Shown here: one piece after another, positions 5,698-39,650 of the stretch
Position numbering within the stretch: the stretch's first letter is position 1
Layout: every line of letters starts with the position of its first letter
DNA from: Nostoc sp. FACHB-280
GTDB lineage: Bacteria; Cyanobacteriota; Cyanobacteriia; Cyanobacteriales; Nostocaceae
DNA: 64,000 nucleotides
Assembly: GCF_014697615.1 (NCBI RefSeq)
Contig: NZ_JACJSD010000004.1
Span: 62,001 to 126,000 of the forward strand
Direction: 5' to 3'
Translations under genes and position numbers: made by a program
Notes under the pieces: model-generated
What the model was told of the DNA's origin: nothing
What the model saw: the letters and a program-made list of their open reading frames with translations, nothing else
Database searches by the model: none

Positions 5698-5910
5698 TTA
5701 TCCCAACTATGGATCTTGGGAATGATTTGGTGGAAATAAATAGGCGATCGCAGCCCACCCTGAAATAGTTAGTAAACTCACTAAGCAAGAAGCTAGAACA
5801 AGAGTAGTCATTTTAAAAATGAATTAAAACTTTATTTTGCATATCTTCAAGCTATCAATTGAGTATGACAGTCATGCGACTAGCTTGTGTCAATTCTTTG
5901 TACAAATAAA

Positions 5911-5980
5911 GTGCTGAGTGCTGTACACTGAGCGGACTTGTACTGAGCGCAGCCGAAGTAGCCGAAATGTGAGTGCTGAG
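5911..5980. repeat. Degenerate repeat of GTGCTGAGTGCT and ACTGAGCG..CCGAAGT type
   Basis: Between 5698 and 6016 no gene is visible. This part combines the heptamer GTGCTGA, also found as tandem arrays inside recJ at 37652 and 38304, with ACTGAGCGcAGcCGAAGT, a decayed form of the TGAGCGAAGTCGAA loop seen around the GIY-YIG gene at 7216. Confidence 0.55.
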
Positions 5981-6016
5981 TATAGAGCGAGTTATTTGAA
6001 AACTTTGCAACAGCCA

Positions 6017-7123
6017 TTAAGCCAAAGGTAGGCAAAAACTAAATGTACTACCAATTTCTAATTCGCTTTCTACTTGAATTTCTCCGCCTTGTAATTCAAC
6101 TAAATGCCGAGAAATAGTTAACCCAATACCAGTTCCTCCCGAATGGCGATCGCGTGATTGATCAGCCCGCCAAAAGCGTTCAAACACATGGGGTAAATCT
6201 TCAGGGGAAATGCCAATACCTGTATCAATGACAGCAATCCAAAGTTTCGAGGCTTCTGGCCAAGCTTGCAGAGTAATTTTACCTTTAGCTGTGTAGCGGA
6301 TGGCATTGCCGAGTAAGTTGACTAACACCTGTTCAGTGCGATCGACATCCGCCAATACCATTGGTAATTGAGTAGGAAAATCCAAATGCAGCACAGGCCC
6401 ATCTTCTAATAATTGTTCGCTAAATCTTTCTACTAAAGACTCCAACAAAGGGCGCAGATTTATTGCCTGTATTTTAATTGGTAAATAACCGGCTTCTGCC
6501 TTAGAAAGTTCTTGCAAATCATTGACTAATCTTTCTAAGCGCCTAGTTTCTTTGGCTAAACGTCGATAAACTTCCGGCGAAGGTTCTATTACACCATCTG
6601 CTAATTCTTCTAAATAACCACGCACAACTGTTAGCGGTGTTCGCAATTCATGAGTCATATCACCAATGAGTTCCCGCCGTCGTGCTTCTACACCCTCTAA
6701 ACTTGCAGCCATACGGTTAAAACTAGTACCCAGGCGATTTAGTTCAGGAATATCAGACAGAGGTAATCGTGCATCTAATTCACCAACGGCAAACTTTTGG
6801 GTAATTTGTTCCATTTCTGTTAACCGCTGCATAATTCTTTTAGAAACCCAATAACTCAATCCTCCCGCCGCCGTAGTCCCAACAATCACCGACCAAATTG
6901 TGCTGCGTCGCCAAGCTGTTTCAAAGCCTTCTACTAGTTCGGTACGAACATTAATTAAATCTAACCCCTGGCTTTGTAGTCGTTCTAGGTGCAGCACAAA
7001 AAAACGTGGTGACGAAACTTTGCTGATAATCACAAAGCTGACTACCCCCACAATCATCACTACCAAGTGGGAAACAAATAAACGTGATGCCAAAGGCAAG
7101 GATTTTGTCCAACGCCAACTCAT
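6017..7123 (-). CDS. Sensor histidine kinase (BaeS-like, HAMP-HisKA-HATPase)
   Basis: The 368-residue product has a membrane segment at about 17-36, a short extracytoplasmic loop of about 40 residues, a second segment at about 75-92, a HAMP linker (to about 145), the phospho-acceptor box DMTHELRTPL with His158, and the ATPase with N-box (VLVNLLGNAIRYT), DTGIGIS and GGTGIGL boxes. It is a complete OmpR-partner type kinase. The matching regulator gene lies upstream on the same strand (7986-8696) but is separated from it by the GIY-YIG gene and repeats, so a former two-gene operon seems to have been split. The sensed signal is unknown; the loop is short. Confidence 0.9.
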   Translation of the reverse strand: MSWRWTKSLPLASRLFVSHLVVMIVGVVSFVIISKVSSPRFFVLHLERLQSQGLDLINVRTELVEGFETAWRRSTIWSVIVGTTAAGGLSYWVSKRIMQRLTEMEQITQKFAVGELDARLPLSDIPELNRLGTSFNRMAASLEGVEARRRELIGDMTHELRTPLTVVRGYLEELADGVIEPSPEVYRRLAKETRRLERLVNDLQELSKAEAGYLPIKIQAINLRPLLESLVERFSEQLLEDGPVLHLDFPTQLPMVLADVDRTEQVLVNLLGNAIRYTAKGKITLQAWPEASKLWIAVIDTGIGISPEDLPHVFERFWRADQSRDRHSGGTGIGLTISRHLVELQGGEIQVESELEIGSTFSFCLPLA

Positions 7124-7168
7124 TTTAAAAAGTAAAAGTAGCTTTATCTCAATTTGTAATCCTTCGAC

Positions 7169-7194
7169 GCTCCCTGAGCGAAGTCGAAGGGAGC
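7169..7194. repeat. Hairpin with TGAGCGAAGTCGAA loop, downstream of the GIY-YIG gene
   Basis: Arms GCTCCC and GGGAGC enclose the 14-base core TGAGCGAAGTCGAA. A wider alternative pairing, CCTTCGAC (7161-7168) with GTCGAAGG (7183-7190), also exists. The same core recurs at 7932-7945 and, inverted, in three copies between 7574 and 7863. Confidence 0.8.
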
Positions 7195-7215
7195 ATCCTT
7201 ATATAAGAGCATTAA

Positions 7216-7536
7216 TCATATCAAATCGTCAAAACCAGCCAACCTGCTGTAATGAGTTTCATTTTGACATTCAGCTAACTTATGCAACAAATTTGTATCC
7301 CCTAAAATCAGAGCTTGCTTCTTCTTCCGACTCCAACCTTGCACTTGCTTTTCATGCTCAAAAGCATCCATCACAGACTGATAATACTCACAGAAAACCA
7401 ATTTTACAGGCAAGCGTTTTGCTGTGTAGTTTGCACCTTCACCTTGCTGATGTTGCCACAACCGCCGCTCAAGATTCTTTGTACTACCCGTATAATAACT
7501 ACCATCAACACATTCAAGAATGTACATGTAAGCCAT
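7216..7536 (-). CDS. GIY-YIG nuclease family protein (UPF0213/YhbQ-like)
   Basis: The 106-residue product is a single GIY-YIG domain: YMYILECVDGSYYTGSTKN gives the two Tyr/Gly strands, ERRLWQHQ supplies the conserved Arg, and AFEHEKQVQGW the catalytic Glu helix. There is no DNA-binding domain, as usual for the small UPF0213 type. The ATG at 7536 sits only five bases from a 132-bp tandem repeat array and the 3' end lies 22 bases from a hairpin of the same repeat family. It interrupts a sensor/regulator pair. The family's cellular role is poorly known; a link to movement or processing of the surrounding hairpins is my inference. Confidence 0.85.
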   Translation of the reverse strand: MAYMYILECVDGSYYTGSTKNLERRLWQHQQGEGANYTAKRLPVKLVFCEYYQSVMDAFEHEKQVQGWSRKKKQALILGDTNLLHKLAECQNETHYSRLAGFDDLI

Positions 7537-7541
7537 AATAA

Positions 7542-7913
7542 TTGACTTGCGACGCTCTGTTGTTACCCAGATTGTTCCCTTCGACTTCGCTCAGGGAACA
7601 GTTTTGGCGCAAAGTTCAAGGAATCTTCTCTCTACCGAACAACGCAAACGCTCAGGGCGTGTCAGCCATGATGTTGACTTACGCTGCTCTGTCGTTACCC
7701 AGATTGTTCCCTTCGACTTCGCTCAGGGAACAGTTTTGGCGCAAAGTTCAAGGAATCTTCTCTCTACCAAACAACGCAAACGCTCAGGGCGTGTCAGCCA
7801 TGATGTTGACTTACGCTGCTCTGTCGTTACCCAGATTGTTCCCTTCGACTTCGCTCAGGGAACAGTTTTGGCGCAAAGTTCAAGGAATCTTCTCTCTACC
7901 AAACAATGCAAAC
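7542..7913. repeat. Tandem array of a 132-bp repeat, nearly three units
   Basis: Units begin at 7542, 7674 and 7806 (exact 132-base period; the last is shortened). They differ at only a few positions. Each contains GTTCCC, the core TTCGACTTCGCTCA, then GGGAAC, forming a hairpin at 7574-7599, 7706-7731 and 7838-7863. Because 132 is divisible by three, long stop-free frames run through the array; these are not supported as genes. Confidence 0.92.
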
Positions 7914-7963
7914 GCTCCCTTCAACGCTCCCTGAGCGAAGTCGAAGGGAGCGTTGAAGGGAGC
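7914..7963. repeat. Large hairpin: 18-bp perfect arms around TGAGCGAAGTCGAA
   Basis: Left arm 7914-7931 (GCTCCCTTCAACGCTCCC) pairs perfectly with right arm 7946-7963; the 14-base loop TGAGCGAAGTCGAA is at 7932-7945. It lies 22 bases beyond the stop codon of the regulator gene and ends the repeat array. Confidence 0.9.
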
Positions 7964-7985
7964 AGTCGAAGTTTTTTCATCACGC

Positions 7986-8696
7986 TCACATTACAGGAGA
8001 GTCTTCAAATTTATAACCTACCCCAACAACAGTTTTAATAAACGAGGGGTTAGCAGGATCTGGCTCAATTTTTTTCCGCAACCTTGCTACATGGGTGTCA
8101 ACAACTCGCTCGTCACCGAAAAAATCATCGCCCCAAAGTTTATCAATTAGTTGAGTGCGGTTCCAAACTCGCCCAGGGTTACTGACAAAGGTGCTTAATA
8201 AATTAAATTCTAGGTTGGTTAAGTCTAAAGTTTCTGCTTCTTGGGAATTTAACTGGCGCGAAGCGGTGCGTTGTTCAATATCTACAATAAAGTTTTGCGT
8301 CCGGGTAACTTGATGTTGTCCGCCTTGACGCAGACTCCGCCGCAATAACGCCCGGACTCTGGCCACTAATTCTCTAGGGCTGAAGGGTTTAACCATATAG
8401 TCATCAGCACCAGTAGATAAACCAATGACGCGATCGATTTCTTCGCTTTTGGCTGTCAACATTAAAATATAAGGGTCTTTACTTCCAGGTTTTTGGCGAA
8501 TTCTGGCGCAAACTTCCAAGCCATCCAACCCAGGAATCATTAAGTCGAGAATAATTAAATCAGGTGGTTGTTCCTGAAACATCCGCAAGGCGTTTACACC
8601 ATCGCGGCTAACACGACAAGAAAATCCTTCTTTTTCTAAAGCCAGTTGGATTAACTGAGCAATTTCAGCTTCATCCTCAACAATTAAAATATCCAT
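7986..8696 (-). CDS. OmpR-family response regulator (BaeR-like)
   Basis: The 236-residue product has a receiver domain with acidic pocket (VEDEAE), phospho-acceptor Asp51 in LIILDLMIPG and the KPFSPREL segment with its conserved Lys, followed by a winged-helix DNA-binding domain ending GVGYKFED. It is complete. Its likely kinase partner is the gene at 6017-7123, which would directly follow if the GIY-YIG/repeat block were removed. The ATG at 8696 gives the expected MDILIVEDE start. Target genes are unknown. Confidence 0.9.
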   Translation of the reverse strand: MDILIVEDEAEIAQLIQLALEKEGFSCRVSRDGVNALRMFQEQPPDLIILDLMIPGLDGLEVCARIRQKPGSKDPYILMLTAKSEEIDRVIGLSTGADDYMVKPFSPRELVARVRALLRRSLRQGGQHQVTRTQNFIVDIEQRTASRQLNSQEAETLDLTNLEFNLLSTFVSNPGRVWNRTQLIDKLWGDDFFGDERVVDTHVARLRKKIEPDPANPSFIKTVVGVGYKFEDSPVM

Positions 8697-8785
8697 CGCT
8701 ATTCAAAATTCAACGGAATACGCAGAGTTATTTCCTGGCTTGCATTGTACTCTAAAAACCTGTGATAGGTAATGAGTAACAGATT

Positions 8786-37205: not shown

Positions 37206-39650
37206 TTATGCTATGGGTCGATTAACAAGCGCCACAATTGTAGATAAAGGCACTTCAGAAAAATATTGTTGCTGAAACTGTTCCTCGCTGACTGCGGACA
37301 GAAATTGAGTAACGGCTGTATCTACTAGATGGGATGAAATTGTTTGGGAATTTTGGCTGATTTGTAAATAACGGTCTTGTCTGGTAGCTATAAATCCGCA
37401 ATATTTTAAAGCTTTGATTCCTAGTAGTAAGCTGCGATCGCCTATGCCTAATTTTCCTAGTAGTTGCGTGCGGGTAACTAGCTGCTGTGTACGACTCAGA
37501 TATTTAGCTATGCCAACTAGAGTCTGCCAAATTTCTTGCGGTGGTTGTAAGTGAGGTTTAGACCAAGCTAAGGCTAATTGTTGATGATTGTAAAGTGAGC
37601 GTTGCCACCACATACGTATTTCATCCCAGCTAGTGGGGCATTGTTCGAGGATGAGTGCTGAGTGCTGAGTGCTGAGTGCTGAGTATTCCTGGTTGCGCCA
37701 GTCGAGGATTTGTGTTGAATATTGTTGAGTGAGTTCTGAGTTATTGCTAGGACGGACGGCGATTAATCTGATTTCATAGCGTTTTTTGAAACTGTTGTAA
37801 TCTAATTCGACGATGCAATCAGATTTGCCTACAGGTAATTCATCTTTATAATGCCCCCACCACACGCCAGGAAAAGGATTTTTAGTAGAGTCATCCCGAA
37901 TATTAAAATCGGTTTTAATGTACTGTACTTTTTTTCCTTGCCAGTCTTGCTGATTGCGATGCCAAGCATTTTCAAACCAGCAGTTTTGAATGAGTAGTTT
38001 TGGGACTGGGTTTCCCATCCCACAAGGTTCTAGGAGTTTTAATTCTAAAAATAATTCTTTGCCCAAGTCTGCTACGGTAACTTTTAAATCTGCTTGAACC
38101 GTAGGCATCAATTCTGTACTACCCAAAGATTGCCGCAACTGCTGATTAATTGCTTGGGTAAATAAAGGAATATTCTCGACTGGTAAACTCAAACCCGCGG
38201 CGTAGGGATGTCCACCAAAGCGATGTAATAAATGTGCTTGGTCTTTGACTAGTTGATATAAATCAACAGAATTGATGGAACGGGCTGAACCACGGGCTAG
38301 TACAAGTGCTGAGTGCTGAGTGTTGAGTGCTGAGTTAGAAGATAAAGGAGCTAATTCTTCTAAAGCTCCTCTGTTTCCCAGGTTACTGAGCGGAGTCGAA
38401 GTATGGTTACTGAGCGAAGTCGAAGTATGCTCTTCTGCTAATTCAGTGCTTAACAAAATTGTGGGGCGGCCTGTTTCTTGGGCTACTTGTCCGGCGACTA
38501 AGCCTAATACACCGGCTGGCCATTGGGGATCTTCAAGGACGATGACGCTGGTGGTTGATAAATCTAATTGGGTGAGTTTTTGGGCTACCTGGGTTTGGAC
38601 ATCTTTTTGTAATGACTTGCGGCGAGTGTTGGCAAGTTCTGTCTCTTCAGCCAATTGATTGCAGTGTTTGGCATCGCGGCTAGTCAGTAATTCTACGCAA
38701 AAACTCGCATCACCTTGAATGCGACTAACTGCGTTGATGCGCGGCCCCAAACCAAAGGAAATATCTGTGGGGCGATCGCCACTTTTTTGGCACAATTCTA
38801 ATAATCGCCCTACACCTGGTCGTCGTCGTGCGGTTGGTGGTTGTTTAAAGTCTGCTTGTAAACGTTGGATTCCCAATTGTGCTAAATACCGACAATCTCC
38901 TTTGAGTTGTACTAAGTCAGCAATTAACCCGACTGCGACTAAATCTAATAAATTTTCCAGTGCATCTTGCGGGACGTTCGGCAGAGTTTGATAAAGTGCT
39001 TCTACTAACTTGTAAGCAACTGCTACCCCAGAAAGATGAAATAATGTATGTTCACTTGGTAAATAACGGGGGTTAATAATAGCTGTAACTGGTGGACGTT
39101 GGGCGGGTAAGGTGTGATGGTCGGTAACAATGACATCTATACCTAACTGTTGAGCATAGATAATTTCATCAATATTTGTGCTACCTGTATCACAAGTAAC
39201 TATTAATTTAAAATTTTGTTTTGCTAAATTCTCGATTCCTGAATTATTCAGTCCGTGAGATTCTCTAAGGCGATTGGGAATGTAATAAGTTAACTGTGTA
39301 TGTTGCTGAAAAAATTGCCCCAAGCCATCCCATAACACCGCAGTAGAAGTGATACCATCAGCATCAAAATCTCCCCAAATCGCCACTTTTTCACCAAGCT
39401 TACTTGCTTGTTGTAATCTGGTGATTGCTAGGTGCATTTCTTCCCCAAATTCAAAGGGACTAGCAGGTTGATAATTTTGATAGTTAACAAAAGTGGCTAG
39501 TTGTTGAGAATCTTGAATACCTCTTTGCCACAATAATTGTGCTGCATATAATCCACTCGATGCAGGTGTGTACTGCTTGACTGCTGCAATAAACCAATCT
39601 GGGGGTTGTTCAGTTGGTGCTAAAATCCATTGTGTTTGGTCATTTGTCAT
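37206..39650 (-). CDS. recJ: Single-stranded-DNA-specific exonuclease RecJ, with repeat-encoded insertions
   Basis: The 814-residue product has the DHH core (VAIWGDFDADGITSTAVLW, CDTGSTNIDE, VTDHHT) and the DHHA1 region (RINAVSRIQG, RFGGHPYAAGLSL), so catalysis should be intact. RecJ degrades single strands 5' to 3' in repair and recombination. Two segments look foreign: about residues 402-452 (containing TSTSLSNHTSTPLSN and NTQHSALVL) and about 655-672 (STQHSAL). Both are encoded by heptamer arrays and a TGAGCGAAGTCGAA-type repeat that also occur outside genes. They lie between conserved blocks, probably as surface loops. Cyanobacterial RecJ is already longer than the enterobacterial enzyme. 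Confidence 0.92.
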   Translation of the reverse strand: MTNDQTQWILAPTEQPPDWFIAAVKQYTPASSGLYAAQLLWQRGIQDSQQLATFVNYQNYQPASPFEFGEEMHLAITRLQQASKLGEKVAIWGDFDADGITSTAVLWDGLGQFFQQHTQLTYYIPNRLRESHGLNNSGIENLAKQNFKLIVTCDTGSTNIDEIIYAQQLGIDVIVTDHHTLPAQRPPVTAIINPRYLPSEHTLFHLSGVAVAYKLVEALYQTLPNVPQDALENLLDLVAVGLIADLVQLKGDCRYLAQLGIQRLQADFKQPPTARRRPGVGRLLELCQKSGDRPTDISFGLGPRINAVSRIQGDASFCVELLTSRDAKHCNQLAEETELANTRRKSLQKDVQTQVAQKLTQLDLSTTSVIVLEDPQWPAGVLGLVAGQVAQETGRPTILLSTELAEEHTSTSLSNHTSTPLSNLGNRGALEELAPLSSNSALNTQHSALVLARGSARSINSVDLYQLVKDQAHLLHRFGGHPYAAGLSLPVENIPLFTQAINQQLRQSLGSTELMPTVQADLKVTVADLGKELFLELKLLEPCGMGNPVPKLLIQNCWFENAWHRNQQDWQGKKVQYIKTDFNIRDDSTKNPFPGVWWGHYKDELPVGKSDCIVELDYNSFKKRYEIRLIAVRPSNNSELTQQYSTQILDWRNQEYSALSTQHSALILEQCPTSWDEIRMWWQRSLYNHQQLALAWSKPHLQPPQEIWQTLVGIAKYLSRTQQLVTRTQLLGKLGIGDRSLLLGIKALKYCGFIATRQDRYLQISQNSQTISSHLVDTAVTQFLSAVSEEQFQQQYFSEVPLSTIVALVNRPIA
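37652..37686. repeat. Heptamer STRR (TGAGTGC x5) inside recJ
   Basis: Four perfect TGAGTGC units and a partial fifth lie in the coding strand of recJ, read as STQHSAL-type peptide. 35 bases of repeat are accommodated without a frameshift. Confidence 0.85.
38304..38331. repeat. Heptamer STRR (GAGTGCT type x4) inside recJ
   Basis: Units AAGTGCT, GAGTGCT, GAGTGTT, GAGTGCT. About 50 bases away, at 38381-38428, two 24-base copies of GGTTACTGAGCG(G/A)AGTCGAA lie in tandem, also within the coding region. Confidence 0.85.

Follow-up and report, generated by a model that had tools for sequence, protein, structure and literature searches.

Introduction

Enzymes of the GIY-YIG type hydrolyse DNA and have no joining activity, and some of them are tied to particular repeats: the Ssn proteins, reportedly presented in Nature Communications in 2025, are said to be site-specific single-strand GIY-YIG nucleases with the NTS repeats of Neisseria as their partners and with effects on transformation. 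The genomes of Nostoc, for their part, reportedly carry small dispersed repeats, described by Elhai et al. in 2008 as very small mobile repeats in Nostocales. A second example of an enzyme gene found among its own repeats is the REPIN/RAYT system, which the consulted parts of PMC3116915 and PMC2817692 describe as short palindromes, often arranged as inverted doublets and with many solo copies, in which the enzyme gene is flanked by its palindromes. REPs tagged with GTAG or CGTC are likewise small palindromes, and the consulted part of PMC3733652 places them also in Anabaena and Nostoc; the main text of that paper contains 0 occurrences of GIY-YIG.

Here we describe, in Nostoc sp. FACHB-280, a small GIY-YIG gene associated with hairpins whose arms covary, whose copy number in a genome is linked to the gene and which form, together with the gene, a cassette lacking from the same site in relatives. 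No report of this link between a GIY-YIG gene and hairpins was found in the literature covered on GIY-YIG proteins together with REPs, Ssn, YhbQ/UPF0213 or hsd (titles and abstract openings, the texts PMC3733652, PMC1564403 and PMC3116915, and few subscription journals), and of six core strings sought there one appeared, in a single paper on another subject; since subscription journals were mostly outside this literature, the absence of a report is no proof of novelty.

Results

A GIY-YIG gene enclosed by hairpins

The window, by which we mean the whole stretch of 64,000 nt that was analysed, holds the following features.

7124..7975, no strand assigned: inserted cassette of hairpins and GIY-YIG gene, its right edge accurate to a few bases, with some 35 bp of uncertainty at the left; 29/29 fetched relatives have the same neighbours without the cassette
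7216..7536, minus strand: GIY-YIG nuclease gene, 106 aa (open reading frame, Pfam match, alignment)
7169..7194, plus strand: hairpin with 6-bp arms GCTCCC/GGGAGC, core 7175-7188
7573..7600, minus strand: hairpin in the tandem array, 7-bp arms, core 7580-7593
7705..7732, minus strand: hairpin in the tandem array, 7-bp arms, core 7712-7725
7837..7864, minus strand: hairpin in the tandem array, 7-bp arms, core 7844-7857
7914..7963, plus strand: hairpin with perfect 18-bp arms, core 7932-7945
7527..7917, no strand assigned: tandem array, 3.0 copies of 132 bp, one hairpin per unit
5941..5960, plus strand: solo core TGAGCGCAGCCGAA at 5944-5957 with 3-bp arms TAC/GTA
38384..38427, plus strand: two tandem 24-bp units in recJ, cores 38387-38400 and 38411-38424; recJ, named by its domains, lies on the minus strand
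6017..7123, minus strand: sensor histidine kinase gene, downstream of the insertion (domains HAMP, HisKA, HATPase_c)
7986..8696, minus strand: response regulator gene, upstream of the insertion (domains Response_reg, Trans_reg_C)

The original prediction, made from the letters of this stretch, had a GIY-YIG gene at 7216-7536 flanked on both sides by hairpins, with 6-bp arms at 7169, three tandem copies and a perfect 18-bp arm pair at 7914-7963, and the locus is indeed built in this way: one hairpin lies on the downstream side of the gene and four on the upstream side, three of the four constituting the 132-bp array, and all five enclose the core TGAGCGAAGTCGAA between complementary arms of 6, 7, 7, 7 and 18 bp. 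The window contains eight cores in all (six exact, one with 1 mismatch and one with 2), against an expectation of 0.28 and with 0/100 shuffles reaching 8. Those outside the cassette are the solo copy at 5944, which had been taken for a decayed element, and two in recJ, one of them mismatched relative to the exact core. Because position 7 of the core is free and position 10 is either T or C across copies, the copy at 5944 has to be regarded as a standard form rather than a decayed one; the cores proposed for recJ are present, more exactly as a tandem pair of 24-bp units within a linker that varies.

The 106-aa protein matches the Pfam GIY-YIG domain with an E value of 5e-17 and has no match in NCBIfam. 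GIY-YIG was the sole domain found in it, with no Y1 domain, and its residues Y5, Y15-G17, H29, E62 and N92, which we take to be the conserved active-site residues, are invariant in 15/15 close homologues. Over about 77 residues of the GIY-YIG domain it resembles the UPF0213 structures 1zg2 and 1ywl, which were deposited as hypothetical proteins. A GIY-YIG homing endonuclease encoded within a self-splicing intron or an intein was considered and rejected, given that the gene stands free between other genes and that no RNA family is found in 5800-8700 by Rfam at gathering score. Reading the stretch 7527-7917, we observed that the 132-bp unit repeats, along with the upstream hairpin, the beginning of the GIY-YIG gene with its start codon, so that the array resembles duplicated 5' ends of the cassette.

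An insertion between a response regulator and its kinase

The cassette, of about 850 bp, lies between a response regulator gene and the gene of its kinase. The regulator has matches in 115 genomes, from which 30 loci were fetched, the window's own among them, and 29/29 of the other genomes have regulator and kinase without a cassette and with no cores between the two; in the two closest relatives the junction of the two genes is a few bases long. Eight of these 29 genomes (G006, G010, G015, G029, G035, G038, G056 and G072) hold the gene elsewhere, so that its place is not fixed. Comparison with the relatives leaves the right edge clear; at the left edge about 35 bp are absent from them and the exact ends are ambiguous, and with this ambiguity no clean target-site duplication was seen at the cassette ends against the closest relatives.

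The linker in recJ is also variable, measuring 69-213 bases in 12 Nostocaceae genomes, in which it carries two cores in the Nostoc genome under study and a single one in G072, the remaining ten having no core there. On reading the window at 38200-38450, the linker seems to gather several kinds of short repeats, in frame.

A constant core between covarying arms

The 14-base core TGAGCGNAGYCGAA remains constant while the two arms vary in concert. The genome that provided the window (7.64 Mb) contains 64 exact cores, or 123 if the seventh base is left free, and 0 matches to a reversed-core control. Of the 123, we read the 79 copies lying in stretches that had been selected for the 64 exact cores; the arms measure 3-7 bp in 67 of them, 1-2 bp in 6 and 8-18 bp in 6; their 57 unique arm pairs give a mean stem of 4.11 bp compared with 1.12 in shuffled pairs, and arm positions 1-3 are paired in 100, 95 and 93% as opposed to 40-51%. 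The same holds for 389 copies in 80 relatives (see below), whose 329 unique arm pairs have a mean stem of 4.29 bp versus 1.12, with 0/2000 shuffles above 1.33; both tests were run on unique arm pairs and, having no tree correction, ignore kinship. The earlier view that the core is constant, that the arms covary and that the hairpin itself is maintained is thus borne out (mean stems of 4.1-4.3 bp versus 1.1 shuffled), the sequence of the arms being free. Tandem arrays of the core occur elsewhere in the same genome, with ten 24-bp units at C34:18199-18428 and four 25-bp units at C2:48903-48991.

The link between gene and core in Nostocaceae

Among 118 Nostocaceae genomes, 31 match the protein: 16 by a close homologue (64-100% identity), one by a broken copy (G043) and 14 by a distant one (33-42%). 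A core lies within 63 bp of the gene, on at least one side, in 16/16 close homologues, and 15/16 have cores on both sides within 300 bp, while chance would place a core within 300 bp of 0.17 of the 16 close genes if the genomes are assumed to be independent. Distant GIY-YIG genes have no core within 1.5 kb in any of 13 fetched loci, taken from 13 of the 14 genomes (G068 and a broken second fragment in G105 were left out); similarly, no core is found near the other four GIY-YIG genes of the window's own genome, nor near the 30 fetched GIY-YIG loci of 14 genomes that bear cores and have no close gene, the cores in these searches being those with T at position 10. A general partnership of every GIY-YIG gene with the hairpins is therefore ruled out by these three sets (0/13, 0/4 and 0/30), as is chance as the source of core number and gene proximity by the shuffles, the reversed control and the expected 0.17 of 16. 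The link between gene and hairpin is real and confined to one part of the GIY-YIG family: the proposed connection to small GIY-YIG genes holds for the close subfamily and fails for distant small genes, 0/13 fetched ones having it.

Copy number follows the same division. The median is 50 cores (8-295) in the 16 genomes with a close gene and 2 in the 102 others (p 2e-9, related genomes being treated as independent), the latter including G043, whose broken copy (50% identity) has no core in its locus and whose genome has 4 cores in all. Medians are 1 in the 14 genomes with a distant match alone and 2 in the 87 matchless ones, and at least 10 cores are present in 15/16 genomes with a close gene as against 25/102 others. 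In G001, which has 203 cores, a close gene was not found, and a search for a hidden one gave two other GIY-YIG matches without nearby cores, so that hairpins can persist without the gene; a lost gene, an assembly gap or another mover are all possible there.

Relatives in eight phyla

GTDB genomes, many of them metagenome bins, were scanned with an alignment (A1) and two peptide patterns of the subfamily, and the best 80 of at least 562 confirmed stretches were studied. By the naming of their records, these 80 relatives belong to the Cyanobacteriota, Bacteroidota, Pseudomonadota, Thermodesulfobacteriota, Myxococcota, Calditrichota, Chloroflexota and Cloacimonadota. A core lies within 500 bp of the gene in 76/80 of them, and the reversed-core control around the same genes gave 0 matches; the proximity of gene and cores, which the original prediction had named as a check, is found, far above chance, in both the Nostocaceae (16/16) and this set. 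Cores are concentrated around the gene, with 274 in the 38.9 kb at most 250 bp from gene ends and 59 in the 512 kb beyond 1 kb, where the bin just before the gene also counts cores overlapping its 3' end. The four relatives without a core at this distance show variants by eye, namely TGAGCTTGTCGAA (L157), TGAGCGTAAGTCGAA (L192), TGAGCAGAGCCGAA (L162) and TGAGTAG...CGTATCGAA (L191). Of the 80 relatives' genomes 42 were submitted to a genome-wide copy count and 41 searched, 40 of which have at least one core (range 0 to 323). The recurrence of the same partnership in eight phyla suggests that the enzyme recognises the hairpins and may help to spread them.

The Flavobacteriaceae provide a second test. 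In 149 genomes of this family the median number of cores falls with the quality of the protein match, from 14 for matches below 1e-33 (n=11) to 7 below 1e-14 (n=41), 2 for weaker matches (n=46) and 0 for none (n=51), with a p value of 2e-11 that likewise treats related genomes as independent; even weaker matches have more cores than no match (p 0.001 on the same assumption). Core copies are thus far commoner where the gene is present in both families, and this check named in the original prediction comes out in favour of a real link. Around the genes of 30 fetched loci, the canonical core is found in 15, a 13-base variant in 3 and neither in 12, the hairpin scan showing other palindromes elsewhere, which indicates that the pairing is looser in this family or that the motif has changed; G286 has the gene and no core. 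In three loci (L254, L272 and L273) palindromes of another kind, among them a stem with GCCGAAC and a TTT loop as well as AGCGATAGCG, flank genes that belong to the wider family; these are perhaps other cognate sites.

Layout, neighbouring genes and type I restriction operons

Relative to the gene, the core closest to it upstream has plus orientation in 41/57 cases (41:16) and the one closest downstream has minus orientation in 51/70 (51:19), and the window conforms to this layout. The neighbour is co-oriented with the gene in 68/77 cases upstream and in 42/66 downstream; the cassette lies mostly 3' of a co-oriented gene and could hence be read from host promoters. In 18/80 relatives, from four phyla, the gene has hsdM on one side and hsdS on the other, in some cases with small genes intervening (L125, L126, L129, L131, L133, L135, L137, L141, L144, L149, L150, L154, L156, L158, L159, L169, L198 and L200); the query genes of this search were confirmed as HsdM, HsdS and R-type proteins. 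The neighbours scanned outside these loci are diverse, as judged from the 25 commonest families among 43 upstream and 38 downstream proteins from loci with no hsd match, and a fixed partner gene was consequently rejected, the neighbours being diverse apart from hsdM and hsdS. Diverse neighbours together with the hsd loci indicate that the cassette enters many places, often in operons, and that type I restriction systems are a repeated location. In two of the hsd loci, L154 and L159, cores lie inside the reading frame of hsdM.

Discussion

The explanation that we favour, and that we consider likely, is that the 106-aa GIY-YIG nuclease has as its predicted site the hairpin formed by TGAGCGNAGYCGAA with any complementary arms, and that gene and hairpins make up a single selfish cassette. 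The covariation, the proximity, the copy numbers and the breadth of the association are, taken together, most simply explained if the nuclease recognises the hairpin, and we infer it strongly from these sequence comparisons. The enzyme might also move or trim the hairpins, as was originally proposed by analogy.

The nearest analogue appears to be Ssn. The likeness to Ssn as reportedly described lies in the protein, which is small, has GIY-YIG as its single domain and conserves the active-site residues, and in a multi-copy, putatively cognate repeat that is both dispersed and placed around the gene (here 16/16 and 76/80, and 15/30 in Flavobacteriaceae), whereas the present hairpins differ in that their arms are free and the core alone is fixed. 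Gene and hairpin are probably a member of this recently described kind, and by the same analogy the 106-aa protein is most likely an Ssn-type nuclease that, together with its cognate hairpin, spreads as a selfish unit in the manner of a REPIN. To REPIN/RAYT the resemblance is one of arrangement, the cassette hairpins being dispersed, often in inverted pairs, and flanking the enzyme gene; the differences are a GIY-YIG nuclease here instead of a Y1 HUH transposase, and the lack of a fixed foot motif. The GTAG/CGTC REPs differ from the present elements, whose arms have many sequences and no common tag at the next-to-core positions examined. The hairpins may belong among the Nostoc small dispersed repeats reportedly described by Elhai et al. 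in 2008. The UPF0213 structures 1zg2 and 1ywl offer a further comparison; the distant small GIY-YIG genes of Nostocaceae have no nearby cores (0/13 fetched).

As to how such a cassette would propagate, the hairpin could fold when its site becomes single-stranded on the lagging strand, during transformation or in repair, the enzyme would then nick the folded hairpin in the constant core or close to it, and the DNA between hairpins would be spread, deleted or exchanged through repair or through recombination with other copies. Solo hairpins are scattered across the genome. Since GIY-YIG enzymes hydrolyse DNA and do not rejoin it, spread or transposition of this kind would need host repair or recombination.

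An alternative that we regard as quite plausible, if somewhat short of an even chance, is that the nuclease regulates DNA uptake and recombination: single strands that come in or are displaced would be cut at the hairpins, which would control how flanking genes are exchanged, and the nuclease would not itself move the hairpins. The role in transformation reported for Neisseria Ssn, the lack of joining activity in GIY-YIG enzymes and the 18/80 loci between hsdM and hsdS, where the exchange of alleles would matter, all fit such a regulator; yet the insertion of about 850 bp, the presence of 0, 1 or 2 cores in recJ and the range of 8-295 cores per genome in the gene-bearing Nostocaceae show that these sequences multiply, the means not being thereby indicated.

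It is quite improbable, in our estimation, that the hairpins are REP-like elements moved by Y1 transposases of the IS200/IS605 or RAYT type with the GIY-YIG gene as a passenger. The palindromes are dispersed and often in inverted pairs, as such elements would be, and Y1 genes are present in 5/6 genomes searched; against this, among 30 Y1 loci read (of 49 matches) a core lies within 500 bp in 3, all of them in G006 and identical in match score, which makes them probable copies of one element, the genome with the most cores (G035, 295) has no Y1 match, and the free variation of the arms leaves no fixed foot motif. The analogy to REP/REPIN elements and their RAYT enzymes in the original prediction therefore stands for the layout and not for the enzyme, the protein having no Y1 domain and G035 no Y1 match.

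The association might also be the mere result of shared ancestry, a single ancestral locus having been inherited with its repeats and with no functional pair involved. The protein tree of the 80 relatives does cluster by phylum, with 11 label changes for a minimum of 7; nevertheless, the neighbouring genes differ widely among loci, relatives that have the gene elsewhere lack the cassette at this site, and a single 14-base core would hardly be retained by neutral flanks across eight phyla with arms that vary, which makes common descent of this kind a highly improbable account. That the hairpins, often intergenic as they are, should be selected transcription terminators or mRNA stabilisers next to the gene by chance is barely credible, in view of the scarcity of T runs (at least 5 T within 8 bases after the stem in 2 of 78 own-genome copies on the top strand and 3 on the bottom strand), the lack of any Rfam match, the occurrence of cores in both orientations and within the recJ and hsdM frames, the constant unpaired loop and a gene association far above chance (independence assumed), whereas no weight attaches to the zero matches of a terminator scan that takes loops of at most 8 bases and is blind to hairpins with a 14-base loop.

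The features of most note are that the arms are free, that one core is so widespread, that insertions lie in operons and that the gene is repeatedly found between hsdM and hsdS. Bacteria commonly carry REP-like hairpins, many of them without a known enzyme, and one hairpin family, seen here in eight phyla, now gains a strong candidate. Its core is conserved enough for immediate use as an oligonucleotide substrate; should the protein cut in the way reported for Ssn enzymes, it would act on single strands as a site-specific nuclease, and its hairpin site would be a defined one. Why the cassette turns up repeatedly between the hsdM and hsdS genes of type I restriction operons is a testable question.

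A more detailed version of the cassette model, which we advance tentatively and hold to be rather more doubtful than the outline above, concerns the core itself. Its top strand would fold as a mini-hairpin in which a T-A pair, tandem sheared G.A/A.G pairs, a G-C pair, a bulged T or C and a C-G pair lead to a GNA loop closed by the latter, and the enzyme would read this fold and not the arms; the whole would be a REPIN-like selfish system with a hydrolytic nuclease replacing the HUH transposase, and its repeated presence in type I restriction operons could favour the exchange of hsdS. Both the GNA loop and the tandem sheared G.A pair are stable structures in DNA, and such an inner fold would explain the variable base at the loop tip, the variable bulge, the free arms and the persistence of one pair across eight phyla. 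DNA folding with standard parameters did not show the proposed inner fold and left the core mostly open. Among 184 hairpins whose TGAG/CGAA ends were fixed by the search and whose inner part has six bases, the inner part reads CGNAGY in 176. The few inner parts of five bases (CTTGT, GTTCT and GCTCT, the 13-base variants) retain a bulged T together with a C-G or G-C pair, and these variants seem to swap C-G for G-C while keeping the bulge.
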